A DNA stretch of 50,792 bases from Clostridiales bacterium (GTDB taxonomy: Bacteria > Bacillota > Clostridia > Oscillospirales > Oscillospiraceae). The stretch is from contig JAJPXL010000026.1 in the NCBI GenBank assembly GCA_021205455.1, forward strand, positions 1 through 50,792, written 5' to 3'. A program made the translations under genes and the position numbers. Below, one piece after another: positions 23,065 through 30,323 of this stretch. The notes beneath the pieces were generated by a model that ran no database searches, was not told the origin of the DNA, and saw only the letters and a list, made by a program, of their open reading frames with translations. How positions within the stretch are numbered: the stretch's first letter is position 1; each line of letters opens with the position of its first letter.

Positions 23065-25836
23065 TTACAGCAGTTCTCCGTAATGACGGACGCAGGCTTT
23101 CTTCAGGCTGGTAGCCAGCAGCATATAGAGCAGAATGCAGGGGATCAGGTAGGCAAAATAGCTAGCCGGCAGCGCCACAAATCCCAGCATCGTGCCGAAC
23201 GGAGTGAACGGAATCATCGTCAGCACCGCGATACCCGTCATGGTCAGCAGCGTCACAGGGGCGGAAGCATGGCTCTCGATGAAGGGCAGCTTGGGTGTAC
23301 GGATCATGTGAATGACCAGCGTCTGGCTCCACATGGACTCCACAAACCATCCGGCCTGGAACATGGCCGCATAGGTGGTCTGCATCGCCTCCAGCTCCGC
23401 GCCGCTGAAGTGGGCGGCAAGGTCATTGTACAGGACGCCGCCGGAGACAAACATGGGGCAGAACACGAAGTACATGAAAATGTAAGTCGTGAAGTCGAAG
23501 ATCGAGCTGGCCGGACCGATCCAGATCATAAAGCTCCCCACGCTGGAGGCGTCCCACTGCCGCGGGATGGCGATGAACTCCTCGTCCACATTGTCCCAGG
23601 GGATTGCGGTGCAGCTCAGGTCATAGATCAGGTTCAGGAAAATCAGGTGGACGCTCATCATGGGCAGGAACGGCAGCAGCGCCGAGGCCGCCAGCACGGA
23701 AAACATATTGCCGAAGTTGGAGGATGCCGTCATCTTGATATATTTGATCATGTTGGCATAGGTCTTGCGGCCTTCGACGATTCCTTCCTCCAGTATCATC
23801 AGGTCTTTTTCCAGCAGAATAATGTCAGCGGATTCCTTTGCCACGTCCACAGCCGTATCCACGGAGATGCCGATGTCCGACGCCTTCATGGCGGCGGCGT
23901 CGTTGATGCCGTCTCCCATAAAGCCTACGGTGTGGCCGTTTTCCCGCAGGATGGATACGATGCGGGCTTTCTGGTCAGGGGACAGCTTTGCGAAAACATC
24001 CGTCTCCTCAGCGGCTTTGGCCAGTTCCCTGTCCGTCATATGCTCCAGGTCGGGCCCAAGCAGCATATTGCGCACCTTCAGCCCCACCTGGGCGCAGATG
24101 GTACGGGTGACCTTGTCGTTGTCGCCGGTCAGAATCTTCGTGTGGACGCCGTGGTCTGCCAGGGCCTGAATCGCCTCCGCGGTGGATTCCTTGGGCGGGT
24201 CCAGGAAGGCCAGGTACCCGATCAGCACCATATCCGCCTCATCCTTTACGCTGAACGCGCCGACCGGCGATGGATTTGACTTTTGCGCCAGCGCCAGAAC
24301 CCGGAAGCCCTTCTCATTCAGCTCATCTGCTTTTACGATAATCCTCCTGCGCACGTCATCATCCAGAGGCTTTACCTCGCCGTCGATCTCCGCGAAGGAG
24401 CAGACGGAAAGCATCTCCTCCACAGCGCCCTTGGTGACCATCTGGGTTTTCCCGGTCTTATCCTGCACCACCGTGGTCAGGCGGCGGCGGGTGAAGTCGA
24501 AGGGAATCTCATCCACCTTCACATAATTCTCCGACAGGTCGGTCAGCTGCGGATTTTCCTTTTCCTCCTCCTCGGTCTTTTGAATGATGGCCAAATCCAT
24601 CAGGTTTTTATAACCGGTCTGGAAGTAGCTGTTCAGGTAGGCGTGTCGCAGCACCCGGCTGTCCTCTACGCCCTCGACGGTCATGTGGTATTCCAGAACG
24701 ACCTGATCCTGGGTGAGTGTGCCGGTCTTGTCTGTGCAGAGGATGTCGATTGCCCCGAAGTTCTGAATGGAGTTCAGGTTCTTCACGATGGTCTGCTTCT
24801 TGCTCATGGAGACGGCGCCCTTCGCCAGGCAAGTGGTAACGATCATGGGCAGCATCTCCGGCGTCAGCCCCACGGCAATCGAGATGCCGAACAGGAACGC
24901 CGCCAGCCAGTCTCCCTTGGTCAGGCCGTTGATGACGAACACCAGCGGCACCATGACCAGCATGAACCGAATCAGCACCCAGGAGACGGCGTTGACGCCC
25001 TTGGTAAAGCTGGTCTCCACCGCTTCCTCGGCCACCGCCGACGTCATGGAGCCGAACAGCGTGTTATCGCCCACGCAGACCACCACAGCGGTGGCGCTTC
25101 CGGACACTACGTTGCTGCCCATGAACGCGATATTCGTATAATCCGTAATCGCGCCCACGTTCTCGCCTTCGGCGACCATCGGGGTCTTCTCAATCGGCTC
25201 ACTTTCGCCGGTCAGGCTGGCCTGGTTGACGTACAGATCCTTTGCATCCAGGATCCGCACATCAGCGGGAATCATATCCCCTGCCGACAGATGAACGATG
25301 TCTCCCACCACCACCTCATCCAGCAGGAGCTCCGTCTTGGGCGCGTCCCTGCGGGTGACGGTGCAGGTGGTGGTGATCATGGCCAGCAGCCGCTCCGCAG
25401 CGTTGCCGCTTCTGGTCTCCTGCACGAAGCGGAGCGTACCGGAGATGACAACCATAGTCATGATAATGACCACCGTCATGCAGTCGAAATCCTCCGGCTC
25501 ACAGCCGAAAAGGGAGTAATAGGGGAAAATCATGTCTGTGATTGTGGAGACGACCGCCAGGCAAAACAGAATCGCCGTGAACGGGTTGACAAACGCGCCG
25601 GCCAGCCGCTGGGGCAGCGTCTTTTTCTTCTCCTTCGTCACATGGTTGGAGCCGTATGTGAACCGGCTGCTGGAAACTTCCTTCTCATCAAGCCCTGTCA
25701 GGGTAGTATTCAGCTTCTTCAGGACAGGGCGTACTTTGTTTGTGGCCGCAAAGGTAATGCGGCTGTTCATTTCATCCCGGTTGACGGCTTTTGCCGCCAT
25801 TACGCGCAATTCCTCCCGGGTAGCTTTCTTTTCCAT
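23065..25836 (-). CDS. mgtA: Magnesium-transporting P-type ATPase MgtA (copy 1)
   Basis: P3B-type ATPase of 923 residues that imports Mg2+ at the cytoplasmic membrane. The phosphorylated aspartate is D369 in CTDKTGTLT; other motifs are [10 protein letters not shown] (actuator domain), [11 protein letters not shown] (nucleotide site), TGDN and [24 protein letters not shown] (hinge). About ten membrane helices are seen; the helix motif NPFTAILF and [11 protein letters not shown] are characteristic of MgtA/MgtB. AGGAGGTAAG precedes the ATG at 25836. The gene is preceded by a short leader ORF and followed by a 50-residue membrane protein; a second MgtA lies 2 kb upstream in the same orientation. 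Confidence 0.96.
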
Positions 25837-25872
25837 TGGACTTACCTCCTAGTCAAAACTCAAATTATCAGA

Positions 25873-25928
25873 GATAAGCTTGATCACAAAGACGGCACAG
25901 ATGTTCCGAGCGCTTTGCGTTGCTTATC
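25873..25928 (-). promoter_or_regulatory. Inverted repeat linking leader ORF and mgtA1 leader
   Basis: GATAAGC inside codons 10-12 of the leader peptide (25922-25928) is perfectly complementary to GCTTATC just after its stop codon (25873-25879). A ribosome on the leader would prevent this pairing, so the RNA fold before mgtA1 could report leader translation. Confidence 0.5.
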
Positions 25929-25955
25929 CCTTCGCGGACTGCCATCGGGGTCCAT
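25884..25955 (-). CDS. MgtL-like leader peptide upstream of mgtA1
   Basis: An ORF of 23 codons that starts with ATG at 25955, 8 nt after a perfect AGGAGG, and ends with TGA at 25884-25886, 47 bp before mgtA1. The peptide begins MDPDGSPRRDKQRK and ends GTSVPSL. Enterobacterial MgtL, the leader of Salmonella and E. coli mgtA, begins M-E-P-D-P-T-P and continues to R-R-R; the acidic/proline start destabilises translating ribosomes when Mg2+ is low and so switches on mgtA. The same order (Met, acidic, Pro, Asp, then Pro and Arg-Arg) is seen here. That this ORF is translated and magnesium-sensing is inference from these features and its position; no M-box riboswitch was recognised. Confidence 0.65.
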   Translation of the reverse strand: MDPDGSPRRDKQRKALGTSVPSL

Positions 25956-26018
25956 GTCGTTTGCCTCCTATTTCAAAAAATATCTATGTAAACTGCACCG
26001 CATCCGCTGCAATGCAGA

Positions 26019-26330
26019 TTATTGGTTTTTATAGCGGCTGCTCTTGGAGATGTATATGACATCTATCCCCGCAAGTACCATCCACACAATGATTGCATAG
26101 GTAAACATCGCTTCGGAAAATCCGGCGCAGGCTCCCCTCAGAATAAAGAGCGCACCATTCAGCGCTATCATTCCGCCAATGTTTTTGCAGAGCGGTTCGA
26201 TTTTGATTTTCTCCTTTTCAGCCTCCAACATCTTCTTCCATGCGGACAAGTGGTTATAGGCTTTCCCAAATGCAAAGGCGATGCCGACCACCGCAAAAAG
26301 GATGCCCAAAAACAGGCAGATATAATCCAT
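26019..26330 (-). CDS. DUF3784 family membrane protein
   Basis: Protein of 103 residues with an N-terminal helix (MDYICLFLGILFAVVGIAFAFG), a charged cytoplasmic segment (WKKMLEAEKEKIKIEPLCKNIGG) and two more helices (MIALNGALFILRG and FTYAIIVWMVLAGIDVIYI), matching the DUF3784 pattern. Function unknown. The ATG at 26330 has GGGAGG 7 nt upstream; an ATG at 26348 would add six residues without a ribosome binding site. It lies 51 bp after mgtC and 63 bp before the leader peptide of mgtA1, so it seems part of the magnesium unit. Confidence 0.75.
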   Translation of the reverse strand: MDYICLFLGILFAVVGIAFAFGKAYNHLSAWKKMLEAEKEKIKIEPLCKNIGGMIALNGALFILRGACAGFSEAMFTYAIIVWMVLAGIDVIYISKSSRYKNQ

Positions 26331-26381
26331 TGCGATTCCTCCCTTCACGCTTTTCGGTTCTTCCGGGTTTTCCGTTCCCCA

Positions 26382-27059
26382 TCACAGGACTTCCCAGCCC
26401 GCGCTCACGACCTCCGGCAGGGACAGGATCTGCCCCACGATTGCCTCCAATACGCGGTTTTTGGGCTTCCCGACGGAGTCGTACTCTGCGACGATCTCCA
26501 CCTTGTCCCCCACCACGTCGCCGCTTTCCAGGTTGGTCAGGTAGAGGGTTTTGCAGGAGTTGCTGTTGATGAGCAGCATCCGAAGCTCATGCTCCGCCCG
26601 CTCCTGACAGGTGACGGAAATGCGGTACTGCTTTTCCGATTCCTCCTCGCCGATAACGGGATTGATTTTCCTGGCCAGCGGGCGGAGGGCCAGGTTGGAG
26701 AGAATCAGGATTCCCGCAGCTGTGGCCGCCATCAGGTACATTCCGGAGCTGACCAGCACACCCACTGCCGCCGTACACCACAGGGTTGCCGCCGTGTTCA
26801 TCCCCCGCACAGATGCGCTTTCCTTGAAAATCACGCCGCTGCAGAGGAAGCCGACGCCCTGAATGATGGCCGCCGCCACGCGGAAGGTCTGTTCTGAGCC
26901 GTAAATCAGGGGGAACAGGGTAAAGAAGCAGGCTCCCATGCAAATCAGCACATTGATACGGATGCCCGCCGTGTGGCCGGTCAGCTGTCGCTCCAGCCCG
27001 ATGGCGAAGCCCAGGGCCAGAGACAGTGAAATACGAAGTACAAAATCTGTGTAAAGCAT
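26382..27059 (-). CDS. mgtC: MgtC/SapB family protein
   Basis: Membrane protein of 225 residues with the conserved MgtC N-terminal half: ALGFAIGLERQLTGHTAGIRINVLICMGACFFTL, then AAAIIQGVGFLCSGVIFKESASVRGMNTAATLW, about five helices in all. The C-terminal 85 residues form a soluble ACT-like domain (YRISVTCQERAEHELRML...LSLPEVVSAGWEVL). MgtC proteins are induced in low magnesium and modulate membrane potential and F-ATPase in enterobacteria; in clostridia the role is less clear. GAGGAGG precedes the ATG at 27059. It sits between the orphan regulator and the DUF3784 gene. Confidence 0.93.
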   Translation of the reverse strand: MLYTDFVLRISLSLALGFAIGLERQLTGHTAGIRINVLICMGACFFTLFPLIYGSEQTFRVAAAIIQGVGFLCSGVIFKESASVRGMNTAATLWCTAAVGVLVSSGMYLMAATAAGILILSNLALRPLARKINPVIGEEESEKQYRISVTCQERAEHELRMLLINSNSCKTLYLTNLESGDVVGDKVEIVAEYDSVGKPKNRVLEAIVGQILSLPEVVSAGWEVL

Positions 27060-27097: not shown

Positions 27098-27134
27098 AAA
27101 AAAAGCAAGGAGAATCACATGGTCAGAACCTTGC
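27098..27134 (-). terminator. Possible attenuator between the regulator and mgtC
   Basis: In the minus-strand transcript GCAAGG (from 27129-27134) can pair with CCTTGC (27105-27110), immediately followed by seven U (27098-27104). A second GCAAGG (27140-27145) could pair with the same CCTTGC, so two alternative stems compete. TAGAAT (27091-27096 region) downstream could be a weak -10, so a promoter reading is also possible. Confidence 0.4.
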
Positions 27135-27149
27135 GATTTCCTTGCGATT
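27128..27149 (-). promoter_or_regulatory. 11-bp direct repeat, candidate regulator box upstream of mgtC
   Basis: On the minus strand AATCGCAAGGA and AATCGCAAGGT follow each other directly (27139-27149 and 27128-27138), so CAAG recurs at exactly one 11-bp step. Direct repeats with this period are typical sites for OmpR/PhoB-type winged-helix proteins; the gene just upstream encodes one. Confidence 0.5.
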
Positions 27150-27171
27150 TGGCAAGAATTGCTCCTGCCGC

Positions 27172-27666
27172 TCAGATGTTGTCATTAAACTTATAGCCGA
27201 TGCCCCAGATGGTCAGGATGTACTCCGGCGCATCGGGATGGGGCTCAATTTTCTTGCGGAGCTTCCGGATAAACGCCATGATGTTGCTGTCGTCCATCAC
27301 ATATTCGCCGTCCCACACGGCCTGATAAATCTGCTCCTTGGTGAACACCTCACCCCGATTCTTCGCCAGGAACAGCAGGATGTCAAACTCCTTTGGGGTC
27401 AATGAAATCTCCCTCTGCCCCATTTTCACCCTTCGGGCTGCGGGGAGGATATGCAGTTCGCCACAGACGATCTCAGAAGCGTTTGACACGGTGCCGGCGT
27501 CGCCCAGCTCCAGCATCAATGACTGGCTGTCTCCACACGCCAAATCAGAGATTGCTTCCAACAGCTCCTGCGCGCCTGTGGCGGTGACAGGTGCTGTTTT
27601 CAGCTTTTCACTCAGCCAGGAAACCGTACCGGCATCCAGGCTGACAAATCCAACTCTTTTCTTCAT
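27172..27666 (-). CDS. Orphan OmpR-type winged-helix regulator without receiver
   Basis: Transcription factor of 164 residues. The C-terminal part from about residue 65 is an OmpR/PhoB (Trans_reg_C) DNA-binding domain: ISLTPKEFDILLFLAKNRGEVFTKEQIYQAVWDG...DDSNIMAFIRKLRKKIEPHPDAPEYILTIWGIGYKF. The N-terminal 65 residues are too short for a receiver domain and lack the paired aspartates, phosphorylation Asp and Lys, so control by a sensor kinase is unlikely; no kinase gene is nearby. AAGGAGG lies 7 nt before the ATG. It starts 11 bp after the mgtA2 stop and therefore is co-expressed with the pump it may control. Confidence 0.9.
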   Translation of the reverse strand: MKKRVGFVSLDAGTVSWLSEKLKTAPVTATGAQELLEAISDLACGDSQSLMLELGDAGTVSNASEIVCGELHILPAARRVKMGQREISLTPKEFDILLFLAKNRGEVFTKEQIYQAVWDGEYVMDDSNIMAFIRKLRKKIEPHPDAPEYILTIWGIGYKFNDNI

Positions 27667-27677
27667 GGGACGCCTCC

Positions 27678-30323
27678 TTACAGCAGCTCTCTGTGTTTCC
27701 GGAAATAGAAGTGCTTCGCTCCGCTGATGGCGATCAGATAACAGAGGACATCAAGTATCAGAAAACCGTAATAACCCACCGGAAGGGCGGTCAGTCCCAG
27801 GTAGCCGCCCACTGGCGTGACCGTGAACACCGTAAACAGGACGACCCCCAGAATCGTGACCAGAAAGACCGCGTGGGAGGGCTTGCTCTGGAGGAACGGA
27901 ATCTTGTTGGTGCGCAGCAGATGCAGAATCAGCACCTGCGTCCACATGGATTCCAGGAACCAGCCGGTCTGAAACAGGGAGATGAACGCGGCCTGTCCGG
28001 ACGGGTCGAGCTGGGCAAAGCTGCCGCCGCAGAGGGCCGGGCAGAGCAGGAAGTACAGGAAGACAAAGGTCAGCACATCAAAGACCGAGCTGATGGGGCC
28101 AAACCGGCACATGAACCGCCCCAGATGCTCCCCCGTCCAGTGAATCGGGTGTTCCAGCTGCTCCGCGTCCACATTGTCCCAGGGCAAAATCAGGCACAGC
28201 GTATCGTAGAGCAGGTTTAGGAGCAGCAGCTGTAGGGAGGTCATGGGGAAGAAGGGCAGCAGCACGCTGGCCACCACCACGGCGCAGATATTGCCAAAGT
28301 TGGAGGAGGCCGTGATTTTGATATACTTTGCCATGTTCGCAAAGGCCCGTCGCCCCTCCAGGATGCCCTGCTCCAGCACGTTCAAATCCTTCTTCAGCAG
28401 GATAACGTCGGCGCTCTCCTTGACCGCCTCCGCAGCCGTATCCACGGAGATGCCCACGTTGGCGGCCAGCTCCGCGGTCAAGTCGTTCATCCCGTCCCCC
28501 AGGAACCCGACGCTGTGACCGCCCTGCTGTAACAGCTCTACGATCTGCGCCTTCTGCTTTGGCGTCAGCTCCGCAAAGATGGTGGTTTGCTCTATGCGCA
28601 GGGGAAGCTCGTTCTCGGAGATGCGCTCCAGCTCCGCGCCGGTCAGGACGTGGCCCGTCTCCACGCCGAGGCGGGAGCAGATGGAGACTGCCGTTTTCCG
28701 GTCGTCCCCGGTCAAAACGCGGACGTCCACCTTCAGCTTTTTCAGCCGCTCGATGGCCTCCGCTGCGCTTTTCTTCGGCGCGTCGAAAAAGCCCAGATAC
28801 CCCAGGAGGACGAAGTCCGATTCCTGTCCGTTCAGCACCGAGGCGCTCGTCCTCCGGCAGGCGACGGCCAGGACCTTCATCCCGTCCTCCGTCATCTCGT
28901 CCACGATGGCGTGGGCGTCCTCCGCGGAATGGCCCTGAATGGGGATCACCTCGCCCTGGAACTGCACAAAGCGGCAGCGGGACACGACCTGCTCCACATT
29001 GCCCTTGATGATGTGCAGATTCTCCGTTTCTCCCTTTAGCAGGATGCCGACCAGCTTGTGCGTGTAATCAAAGGGCTGCTCATCCAGGAGGACGCTGCTC
29101 TTGGACAGCGTCTCAAAATGTTCCTCCATGCCGGGCATCTCCCTGCATTTCAGGATGGCCGTGTCCAGGTGGTTCTTCACGCCGCTGTGGTAGTAGCTGT
29201 TCAGAAAGGCGTAGTCCAGGACGGTACCGCTCTCATTCCCCAGGACATCCATGAAATATTCCAGCGTGACGGTGTCTCCGGTCAGGGTCCCCGTCTTGTC
29301 CACACAGAGCAAATCCATACTGCCCAGGGACTGCATGGCGTTGATATTCTTCACCACCGTCTGCTTCTGCCCCACGGAGAAGCTGCCCTTGGCCAGGCAG
29401 GCGTTGACCACCATGGGCAGCAGCTCCGGCGTCAGCCCCACCGCAACGGACAGCGCAAACAGGAACGCCTCCAGCCAGTTCCCCTTGGTCAGCCCGCTGG
29501 CGAGGAACACCACCGGCACCAGAATCACCATAAACTTGATTAGCACCCAGGCGATGGACGCAGCCCCGCGGTCAAATTCCTCCTTCCGGCTGGAGGGCTC
29601 TGCGGAGAAATTCCCGTAAACGGTGTCGGCTCCCACGGCCAGAACAACGCCGGTCCCCCAGCCTCCGGTGACCGTCGTCCCCTGAAAGACCGTGTTGCTG
29701 TAGTCGCTGATTTTCGTCGGGGATTCTGTCAGCGGCAGGGAAGTCTTTTCCAGAATCCTGCTCTCGCCGGTGATGACGGACTGGGAGACAAACAAATCCG
29801 TTGCATCCGTCAGGCGGATATCCGCCGGGACCCGATCTCCGGCCTCCATATGAACCAGGTCGCCGACGACCAGCTCGTCGGAACACACCTCCTGCCAGAC
29901 GCCGTCCCGACAGACGGAGACGGTGGTCTGCACCAGATTGGTCAGGCGGTCCGCCACCCGCTTCGCCCGAAGCTCCTGGAACAGCCGTATGACCCCGCTC
30001 AGCACCAGCATCAGGCTGATGATAACCACCGAAGAAAGCCCCTGCCCATACTGTTCGGGCATCAGGATATCGGTCAAAAACAGGATGATTGCCAGCAGGA
30101 ACAGAATCACCGTGAACGGGTTGAAAAAGGCCCTGCGGATGCAGTGCGGAATGGTGTTCTCCTTCTTCCTGCCGGGCGCCTGTTCATTTCCGCCGTATTT
30201 TTTCCGGTGCAGGTGTACCTGCTCCTGGGTCAGCCCCCGTTCGCCGGAATCGGTTTCCTCCATGGCGGCTGTACAGGAAGCGCAGGCGCATTCCCGTATT
30301 CGGGGGTGTATCATCTCTTTCAC
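27678..30323 (-). CDS. mgtA: Magnesium-transporting P-type ATPase MgtA (copy 2)
   Basis: Second P3B-type Mg2+ importer, 881 residues, with the phosphorylated aspartate at D342 in CVDKTGTLTGDTVTLEY, actuator motif ITGESRILEK and hinge VGFLGDGMNDLTAELAANVGISVD. It is clearly diverged from copy 1: the hinge has GDGMNDLTAEL where copy 1 has [10 protein letters not shown], and the N-terminus is shorter with a cysteine pair (CACASC). The GTG at 30323 is chosen because AGGAGG lies 8 nt before it; a TTG at 30380 would fall upstream of the likely transcription start. It is the first gene of the magnesium island. Confidence 0.93.
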   Translation of the reverse strand: MKEMIHPRIRECACASCTAAMEETDSGERGLTQEQVHLHRKKYGGNEQAPGRKKENTIPHCIRRAFFNPFTVILFLLAIILFLTDILMPEQYGQGLSSVVIISLMLVLSGVIRLFQELRAKRVADRLTNLVQTTVSVCRDGVWQEVCSDELVVGDLVHMEAGDRVPADIRLTDATDLFVSQSVITGESRILEKTSLPLTESPTKISDYSNTVFQGTTVTGGWGTGVVLAVGADTVYGNFSAEPSSRKEEFDRGAASIAWVLIKFMVILVPVVFLASGLTKGNWLEAFLFALSVAVGLTPELLPMVVNACLAKGSFSVGQKQTVVKNINAMQSLGSMDLLCVDKTGTLTGDTVTLEYFMDVLGNESGTVLDYAFLNSYYHSGVKNHLDTAILKCREMPGMEEHFETLSKSSVLLDEQPFDYTHKLVGILLKGETENLHIIKGNVEQVVSRCRFVQFQGEVIPIQGHSAEDAHAIVDEMTEDGMKVLAVACRRTSASVLNGQESDFVLLGYLGFFDAPKKSAAEAIERLKKLKVDVRVLTGDDRKTAVSICSRLGVETGHVLTGAELERISENELPLRIEQTTIFAELTPKQKAQIVELLQQGGHSVGFLGDGMNDLTAELAANVGISVDTAAEAVKESADVILLKKDLNVLEQGILEGRRAFANMAKYIKITASSNFGNICAVVVASVLLPFFPMTSLQLLLLNLLYDTLCLILPWDNVDAEQLEHPIHWTGEHLGRFMCRFGPISSVFDVLTFVFLYFLLCPALCGGSFAQLDPSGQAAFISLFQTGWFLESMWTQVLILHLLRTNKIPFLQSKPSHAVFLVTILGVVLFTVFTVTPVGGYLGLTALPVGYYGFLILDVLCYLIAISGAKHFYFRKHRELL

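Follow-up and report, generated by a model that had tools for sequence, protein, structure and literature searches.

An acidic leader peptide upstream of mgtA1 in an Oscillospiraceae genome as a candidate ribosome-based Mg2+ sensor, with related leaders before Mg2+ transporter genes of Bacillota

Sensing of Mg2+ by ribosomes that fall off their message is known from the enterobacterial leader peptides MgtL and MgtQ. Early acidic residues have a general destabilising effect on ribosomes that is relieved by Mg2+ (PMC9718836), the EPDP stretch of MgtL destabilises them at low Mg2+ (PMC11282234), and in Salmonella the Shine-Dalgarno (SD) sequence of mgtB is unmasked through Asp2 and Glu5 of MgtQ (PMC8092293). 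In Mycobacterium, a conserved upstream open reading frame (uORF) is controlled by an M-box riboswitch, the role of its peptide being left open; a search of that paper's text found no mention of MgtL or of ribosome destabilisation (PMC12810186). Our literature search, which left subscription journals largely outside its reach so that an earlier mention is possible, returned no report of acidic leader peptides for Mg2+ transporters of Bacillota, no Gram-positive MgtL, and no report of an M-box with a uORF in Clostridia.

Here we analyse a uORF preceding the Mg2+ pump gene mgtA1 in a Clostridiales gut bacterium of the Oscillospiraceae (contig JAJPXL010000026.1; the whole stretch of 50,792 nucleotides is referred to as the window), which an earlier note had likened to MgtL. 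By linking gene context, comparative sequence analysis, and RNA structure prediction, we arrive at the reading that the uORF is probably a regulatory leader peptide of mgtA1, acting as a ribosome-destabilisation Mg2+ sensor with a translational readout.

The leader ORF and its gene neighbourhood

The ORF reading of the window places the uORF at 25884..25955 on the minus strand, with 23 codons plus a stop and the product MDPDGSPRRDKQRKALGTSVPSL; its minus-strand sequence from 25955 to 25884 is ATGGACCCCGATGGCAGTCCG...TTGTGA. An AGGAGG SD (25964..25969, minus strand) lies 8 nt 5' of its ATG, and 47 nt separate its stop from the mgtA1 ATG at 25836. The length, SD, and gap given in the earlier note are all confirmed from the window sequence, and the inverted repeat that it described, between codons 10-12 (25922-25928, GATAAGC on the minus strand) and 25873-25879 (GCTTATC), is exact and forms part of the RNA switch predicted below. 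As with MgtL, a short SD-led ORF thus stands upstream of an mgtA-type Mg2+ pump, and D2-P3-D4 of the window peptide matches the acidic/proline N-terminus of that type (EPDP, with the acidic residues side by side or separated by one position), a motif that most clade members show as M-D-[SP]-D and that is looser in the wider family.

The gene mgtA1 (23065..25836) encodes a Mg2+-translocating P-type ATPase of 923 aa that scores above cut-off for both TIGR01524 (1104.8 bits; cut-off 610.75) and PRK15122. It ends a series of genes on one strand, the minus strand, in the order mgtA2, OmpR-type regulator, mgtC, DUF3784 gene, uORF, and mgtA1, from which the uORF appears to be placed within an operon and not at its 5' end. 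The DUF3784 gene between mgtC and the uORF (26019..26348; PF12650, E 3e-20) encodes a small membrane protein, and mgtC itself (26382..27059) matches PF02308 and PF21770. Further upstream are an orphan OmpR/PhoB-type regulator (27172..27666) and mgtA2 (27678..30308; family match), a second Mg2+ P-type ATPase gene whose upstream region holds no acid-start uORF (L057). The regulator, of 164 aa, has a PhoB-type DNA-binding domain as its only recognised domain (PF00486 alone), with no recognisable receiver domain, and adjoins mgt genes in relatives too. Directly after its gene, at 27105-27150 (minus strand), a conserved block AAATCGCAAGGAAATCGCAAGG...CATGTGAT...CCTTGC is followed by a T-run, and the same block occurs upstream of mgtA in L048, L106, L108, L114, L132, and L136; the repeated GCAAGG units suggest a putative operator or promoter for the orphan regulator. 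The DUF3784 gene is missing together with the uORF in genomes G028 and G004, and in G414 (L072) a similar DUF3784-like gene lies directly before mgtA without a uORF.

Conservation and association with Mg2+ transporter genes

By MgtA1, the nearest named relatives of the window are Oscillospiraceae and other Clostridia. The earlier note held that its reading would fall if the peptide were unconserved in related genomes; the N-terminus is in fact conserved in Oscillospirales orthologues, which keep M-D-[SP]-D-[GS]-x-P and diverge from codon 8 on. The orthologous leader in G016 (L002; MgtA1 95%) is MDPDGSPRRDRRRKALGASVPSLRLRLSPLT, and more distant orthologues start MDSDGSPQGD, MDSDSSPRSS, MDSDGNPRRY, MDSDSSPRRH, MDSDGNPHRQ, MDSDGCPKRS, MDSDGSPSYP, and MDSDSGPRRL. 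Within the clade D2, D4, and P7 are invariant or nearly so, while their codons change synonymously (GAC/GAT for D2, GAT/GAC for D4, CCG/CCA/CCC for P7), the pattern for which the earlier note had proposed to look; L110 (MNADSSP) keeps D4 and P7 and lacks D2. A search of 197 whole genomes of the order with a degenerate pattern of the SD plus the first 7 codons gave 7 matches, all of them immediately before mgtA1, against 0 matches for the reversed pattern. In G028 and G004, which are among the nearest relatives (88% MgtA1), mgtC directly precedes mgtA1 and the uORF is missing, so that it is dispensable in close lineages. In L195/L210 (G842) the leader stops at codon 8 (MDSDCSP and a stop) and lies 386 bases away from where mgtA is assigned to start; decay or a sequencing error may be the cause.

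Beyond the clade, the suggestion that an MgtL-like leader exists outside Proteobacteria proved well founded, such leaders being conserved and widespread in Bacillota, and a search of the kind proposed at the same time (M-[DE]-P-[DE] ORFs upstream of clostridial mgtA), run here with M-[DE] as the start, gave an enrichment. Using an mgtA set (TIGR01524) drawn from the class, phylum, and order and from a public genome collection, an SD-led ORF with Asp or Glu at codon 2 was found in 52/132 upstream regions of mgtA versus 19/313 of other genes at the same loci (p 7.6e-17, p values here being inflated by relatedness among loci), and in 0/17 upstream of other P-type ATPases. When the uORF with the best SD was chosen in each region blind to codon 2, that codon was acidic in 41/97 mgtA regions and 14/127 others (p 1.1e-7). 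Counted by similarity clusters of MgtA, 34 of 91 have an acid-start uORF, in a set that includes Bacteroidetes and Proteobacteria, mostly without one. Examples are MESQSINSPEPERPQ in Lactococcus, MDEGSSTGIGPTGRCRNRR in Trichococcus, MDASSSNGTGPDK in Niameybacter, MIQIDDHPEPHR in Streptococcus, and MDPDGRDSH in a spirochaete. Many uORFs of the wider family have just one acidic residue close to their start, which is less than the di-acidic motif that known destabilising peptides carry. In one Spirochaetales bacterium (L120), an mgtA with 64% identity to that of the window is preceded by two acid-start uORFs (MDSDSSHSPTLNDD and MDPDGRDSH), which suggests that the unit as a whole passed from one phylum to another. 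A tblastn search of plasmids with a relative's leader peptide gave no match.

The earlier note also named an M-box in the same leader as evidence that would count against it, and treated M-boxes as the usual Mg2+ control of the lineage. A covariance-model search (RF00380) gave no M-box in the window or in its whole genome, unlike in relatives, and an Rfam scan of the window matched no family. The refuting feature is thus absent, and the lineage of the window simply does without an M-box. As a rule the two controls are not alternatives, however: 35 of the 38 related mgtA leaders with an M-box also have an acid-start uORF between the M-box and mgtA. Inspection by eye of the remaining three revealed a comparable ORF in two (L131, VEPESSR...; L134, MGAAHSDDPGG...).

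M-box leaders were also collected irrespective of the downstream gene. Those before genes that we take, by recognition of protein starts and not by a family search, to be mgtE and corA encode peptides starting VDPGPLPS, MDSGPSNY, MDSGPGSL, MDSSPLPG, MDSGPLPN, and MDTGPVPR (mgtE) and MDCDPDSN, MDIDPYPN, MDADPGEK, and VDADPHTN (corA), with D2 in 11/12 and P5 in 11/12. Such M-D-x-[GD]-P-x-P uORFs occur at loci L214, L224, L225, L228, L229, L232, L233, L235, L236, and L238, and in other M-box leaders, e.g. L216, L222, L223, L226, and L227, no uORF of this kind was found. At three corA leaders (L217, L220, and L221) the uORF (e.g. MNGDLSPLSRTF) seems to cross the intrinsic terminator hairpin of the M-box, so that its translation could affect termination.

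Constraint on peptide and RNA

Comparison of the leaders indicates that both their peptide and their RNA are constrained. Composition was tested on 56 acid-start uORFs, in which bulky hydrophobic residues fill 20/336 positions of codons 3-8, versus 236/678 in control uORFs (p 5e-27) and 144/336 when the same bases are read in the +1 frame. Since the depletion is seen in frame only, it points to constraint on the peptide itself. Bulky residues in the nascent chain are said to stabilise the ribosome, an effect that the depletion would fit, as a lead only. Over codons 2-6, of which codon 2 was part of the selection, there are 91 GAN codons in the reading frame and 21 and 9 in the other two; over codons 3-7 the corresponding counts are 44, 23, and 8. 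Leaders without an acidic codon 2 retain acidic residues one or two codons further on (MLEDG, MSEDG, MVDDG, MPEDG), and where ATG is replaced by GTG or TTG at the equivalent position (L061, L151, L214), the SD is kept.

These features have to be weighed against the reading that the leader is an RNA element, in which alternative hairpins sense Mg2+ or another signal, the ORF only lets ribosomes melt the RNA, and the residues are by-products of pairing. A small hairpin (GGAC...GTCC; 25936..25953, minus strand; columns 19-36 of the clade alignment) spans codons 1-7, with both-side changes at two of its pairs, in 2 and 4 sequences of the clade, and residues 5 and 6 follow the RNA pairing rather than the peptide, their changes preserving it. 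In codons 2-14 of wider-family uORFs, AGT accounts for 61% of the Ser codons, compared with 18% in the mgtA genes of those genomes. The hairpin and the AGU bias imply that not every conserved residue reflects selection on the peptide, and the co-varying pairings described next are strong throughout the family. Selection on RNA alone would nevertheless leave unexplained why bulky hydrophobics are depleted in one frame, why acidic residues are kept in different RNA contexts and when shifted by one codon, why GTG and TTG starts retain their SD, and why the same M-D-x-[GD]-P-x-P peptide precedes unrelated transporters, and we regard the RNA-element reading as unlikely. GGNAGU in the uORFs may also act as an SD mimic, pairing with a downstream ACUUCC anti-SD segment.

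The predicted switch comprises three segments on the minus strand: (i) region 2, GATAAGC in codons 10-12 (25922..25928), (ii) region 3, GCTTATCTCT (25870..25879), and (iii) region 4, the mgtA1 SD AGGAGGTAAG (25841..25850). Region 3 is predicted to pair either with region 2, in a stem lengthened by CGCAAAG:CTTTGTG, or with region 4, which would then be masked. For the window alone, shuffle tests gave p 0.04 for the 2:3 pairing, p 0.08 for 3:4, and p 0.03 for both jointly, so that the structural evidence at this level is modest; with the window-specific evidence moderate as a whole, the weight comes from the family, in which the joint test gave a combined p of 1.2e-6 for the 13 clade members and of 4e-18 for the 44 other loci. 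Both the family uORFs, which were picked for acidic starts, and the uORFs of other genes, which served as the control, were included in the structure tests, together with a third pairing, a latch between the uORF's own ribosome binding site (RBS) and a downstream segment.

On the clade alignment, RNAalifold recovered just two elements, the N-terminal hairpin and the helix that masks the SD; it missed the 2:3 pairing, since the alignment does not bring region 2 into register, for which reason swap and shuffle tests were used. Swapping partners among loci weakened the 2:3 pairing (z -11.7), SD masking (z -7.7), and the latch (z -8.7), with no weakening of a control pairing (z +2.1). As this signal could partly reflect matching base composition, a further comparison set each locus against shuffled versions of itself, giving mean z for 2:3, SD masking, and latch of -1.75, -1.64, and -1.15 in the clade and -1.65, -1.53, and -1.29 in the others, versus -0.50, 0.24, and -0.22 in 66 uORFs of other genes. 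The alternative pairings thus co-vary. The latch was rejected in the window (p 0.50); it is clear in many relatives and reaches p 0.035 or below in 11/14 mgtE/corA leaders.

Attenuation by amino acid or tRNA charging, as in Salmonella mgtP with proline, would have stalling at Pro, Arg, or Ser codons of the uORF set the structure before mgtA1. Besides the mgtP precedent (PMC3641672), it could draw on P7 and R8-R9, which are common in the clade, and on the rare codons CGA and AGG, which are over-represented among the Arg codons of the uORFs. Yet the content and position of Pro and Arg vary across the family where the acidic N-terminus does not, the window leader has neither a run of codons for one amino acid nor a predicted intrinsic terminator, and the targets are consistently Mg2+ transporters with no tie to an amino acid pathway; we judge charging attenuation very improbable. 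Much the same low probability attaches to constitutive reinitiation, by which the uORF would only hand ribosomes from the DUF3784 gene to mgtA1. The intergenic position and short distances would suit such a device, several clade uORFs ending 5-33 nt before mgtA, but like uORFs after M-boxes stop 60-260 nt before the gene, the SD-masking helix of the clade would oppose simple coupling, and the N-terminal constraint would go unexplained. A chance ORF without function, with which absence from some close relatives would agree, is in the main refuted by the enrichment, conservation, and specificity found on comparison, and the uORF is, on this comparative footing, almost certainly more than chance.

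Proposed mechanism and comparison with known systems

Under the preferred reading, that of a ribosome-destabilisation sensor, we infer in vivo translation of the leader, ribosome drop-off, a response to Mg2+, and the direction of the switch. With adequate Mg2+, the ribosome would translate through codons 10-15 and occupy region 2, leaving region 3 to pair with the mgtA1 SD and keep mgtA1 translation low. At low Mg2+, the acidic, proline-containing N-terminus of small residues (MDPDG.P) would cause the 70S ribosome to come apart while still on the first codons; region 2, now free, would pair with region 3 and expose the SD. In many relatives, pairing of the uORF RBS with the downstream segment could keep the mRNA switched ON after the ribosome has departed. 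Comparison of free with ribosome-blocked folding gave a mixed outcome: blocking the uORF closes the SD, as expected, in L001, L002, L193, and L198, there is little or no change in several loci, and the sign is opposite in L038, L189, and L191, so that the direction of the switch is a model and not a result. No intrinsic terminator is predicted on the coding strand of the leader (25884-25836), which favours translational control.

Whether ribosome-destabilisation peptides form a general second Mg2+ sensor of Bacillota, with an acidic uORF (often Asp-x-Asp/Gly-Pro) after an M-box or, as in the window, alone, before the genes of the unrelated transporters MgtA, MgtE, and CorA, and with pairing of its own codons gating the transporter SD, is in our estimate evenly balanced. 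If true, a Bacillota leader shared by MgtA, MgtE, and CorA genes, and usually preceded by an M-box, would establish ribosomes as Mg2+ sensors in general, account for the double control of many mgtA leaders, and provide a large natural set of sequences from which to learn which N-terminal peptides break ribosomes.

Among described systems, the pe20 leader of Mycobacterium tuberculosis (Rv1805A; PMC12810186) combines a conserved uORF with a riboswitch in a Mg2+-linked leader, as do most M-box/mgtA leaders of Bacillota, and differs from the window in having an M-box. The MgtP and MgtM attenuator ORFs of mgtCBR (PMC3641672) are likewise ORFs in the leader of an mgtC operon whose RNA can take up alternative structures, but they sense tRNA-Pro charging or ATP via transcription attenuation, whereas the window leader has no predicted intrinsic terminator.

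MgtL, of the mgtA leader in E. coli and Salmonella, resembles the window peptide as an SD-led peptide upstream of mgtA with an acidic N-terminus, an M-[DE]-P-D start, Pro at position 7, and arginines after it. The window has Gly-Ser where MgtL has Pro-Thr, and the likeness is one without demonstrated common ancestry; the spacing of MEPDPTP is matched by the M-D-x-[GD]-P-x-P peptides of mgtE and corA leaders (MDSGPLP, MDTGPVP, MDCDPDS, MDIDPYP). MgtL acts by Rho-dependent termination at the operon 5' end, whereas the window leader is intergenic and seemingly translational. The comparison with MgtL drawn in the earlier note therefore stands for the peptide, with its acidic M-[DE]-P-D start, and has to be given up as the sole analogy, as MgtQ is closer by position and readout.

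MgtQ, an 8-aa uORF between mgtC and mgtB of Salmonella (PMC8092293), is the closest analogue in both respects. Like it, the window uORF is intergenic, downstream of mgtC and upstream of an MgtA/B-type pump gene, has Asp2 and a second acidic residue, and is predicted, with co-variation in the family (window p about 0.03), to form alternative stem-loops of which one masks the SD of the pump gene, with a proposed translational readout. It differs in its length of 23 aa versus 8, in the DUF3784 gene that also lies between mgtC and the pump gene, in the hairpin within codons 1-7, and in that its Mg2+ response is one that we infer. In MgtQ a ribosome on the uORF favours the SD-free structure; the window geometry suggests the reverse for full translation, with the folding results mixed. 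The anti-masking segment of the window is part of the uORF itself, 3' of the acidic codons, and loss of uORF translation is thus predicted to raise mgtA1, whereas in MgtQ it lowers mgtB.
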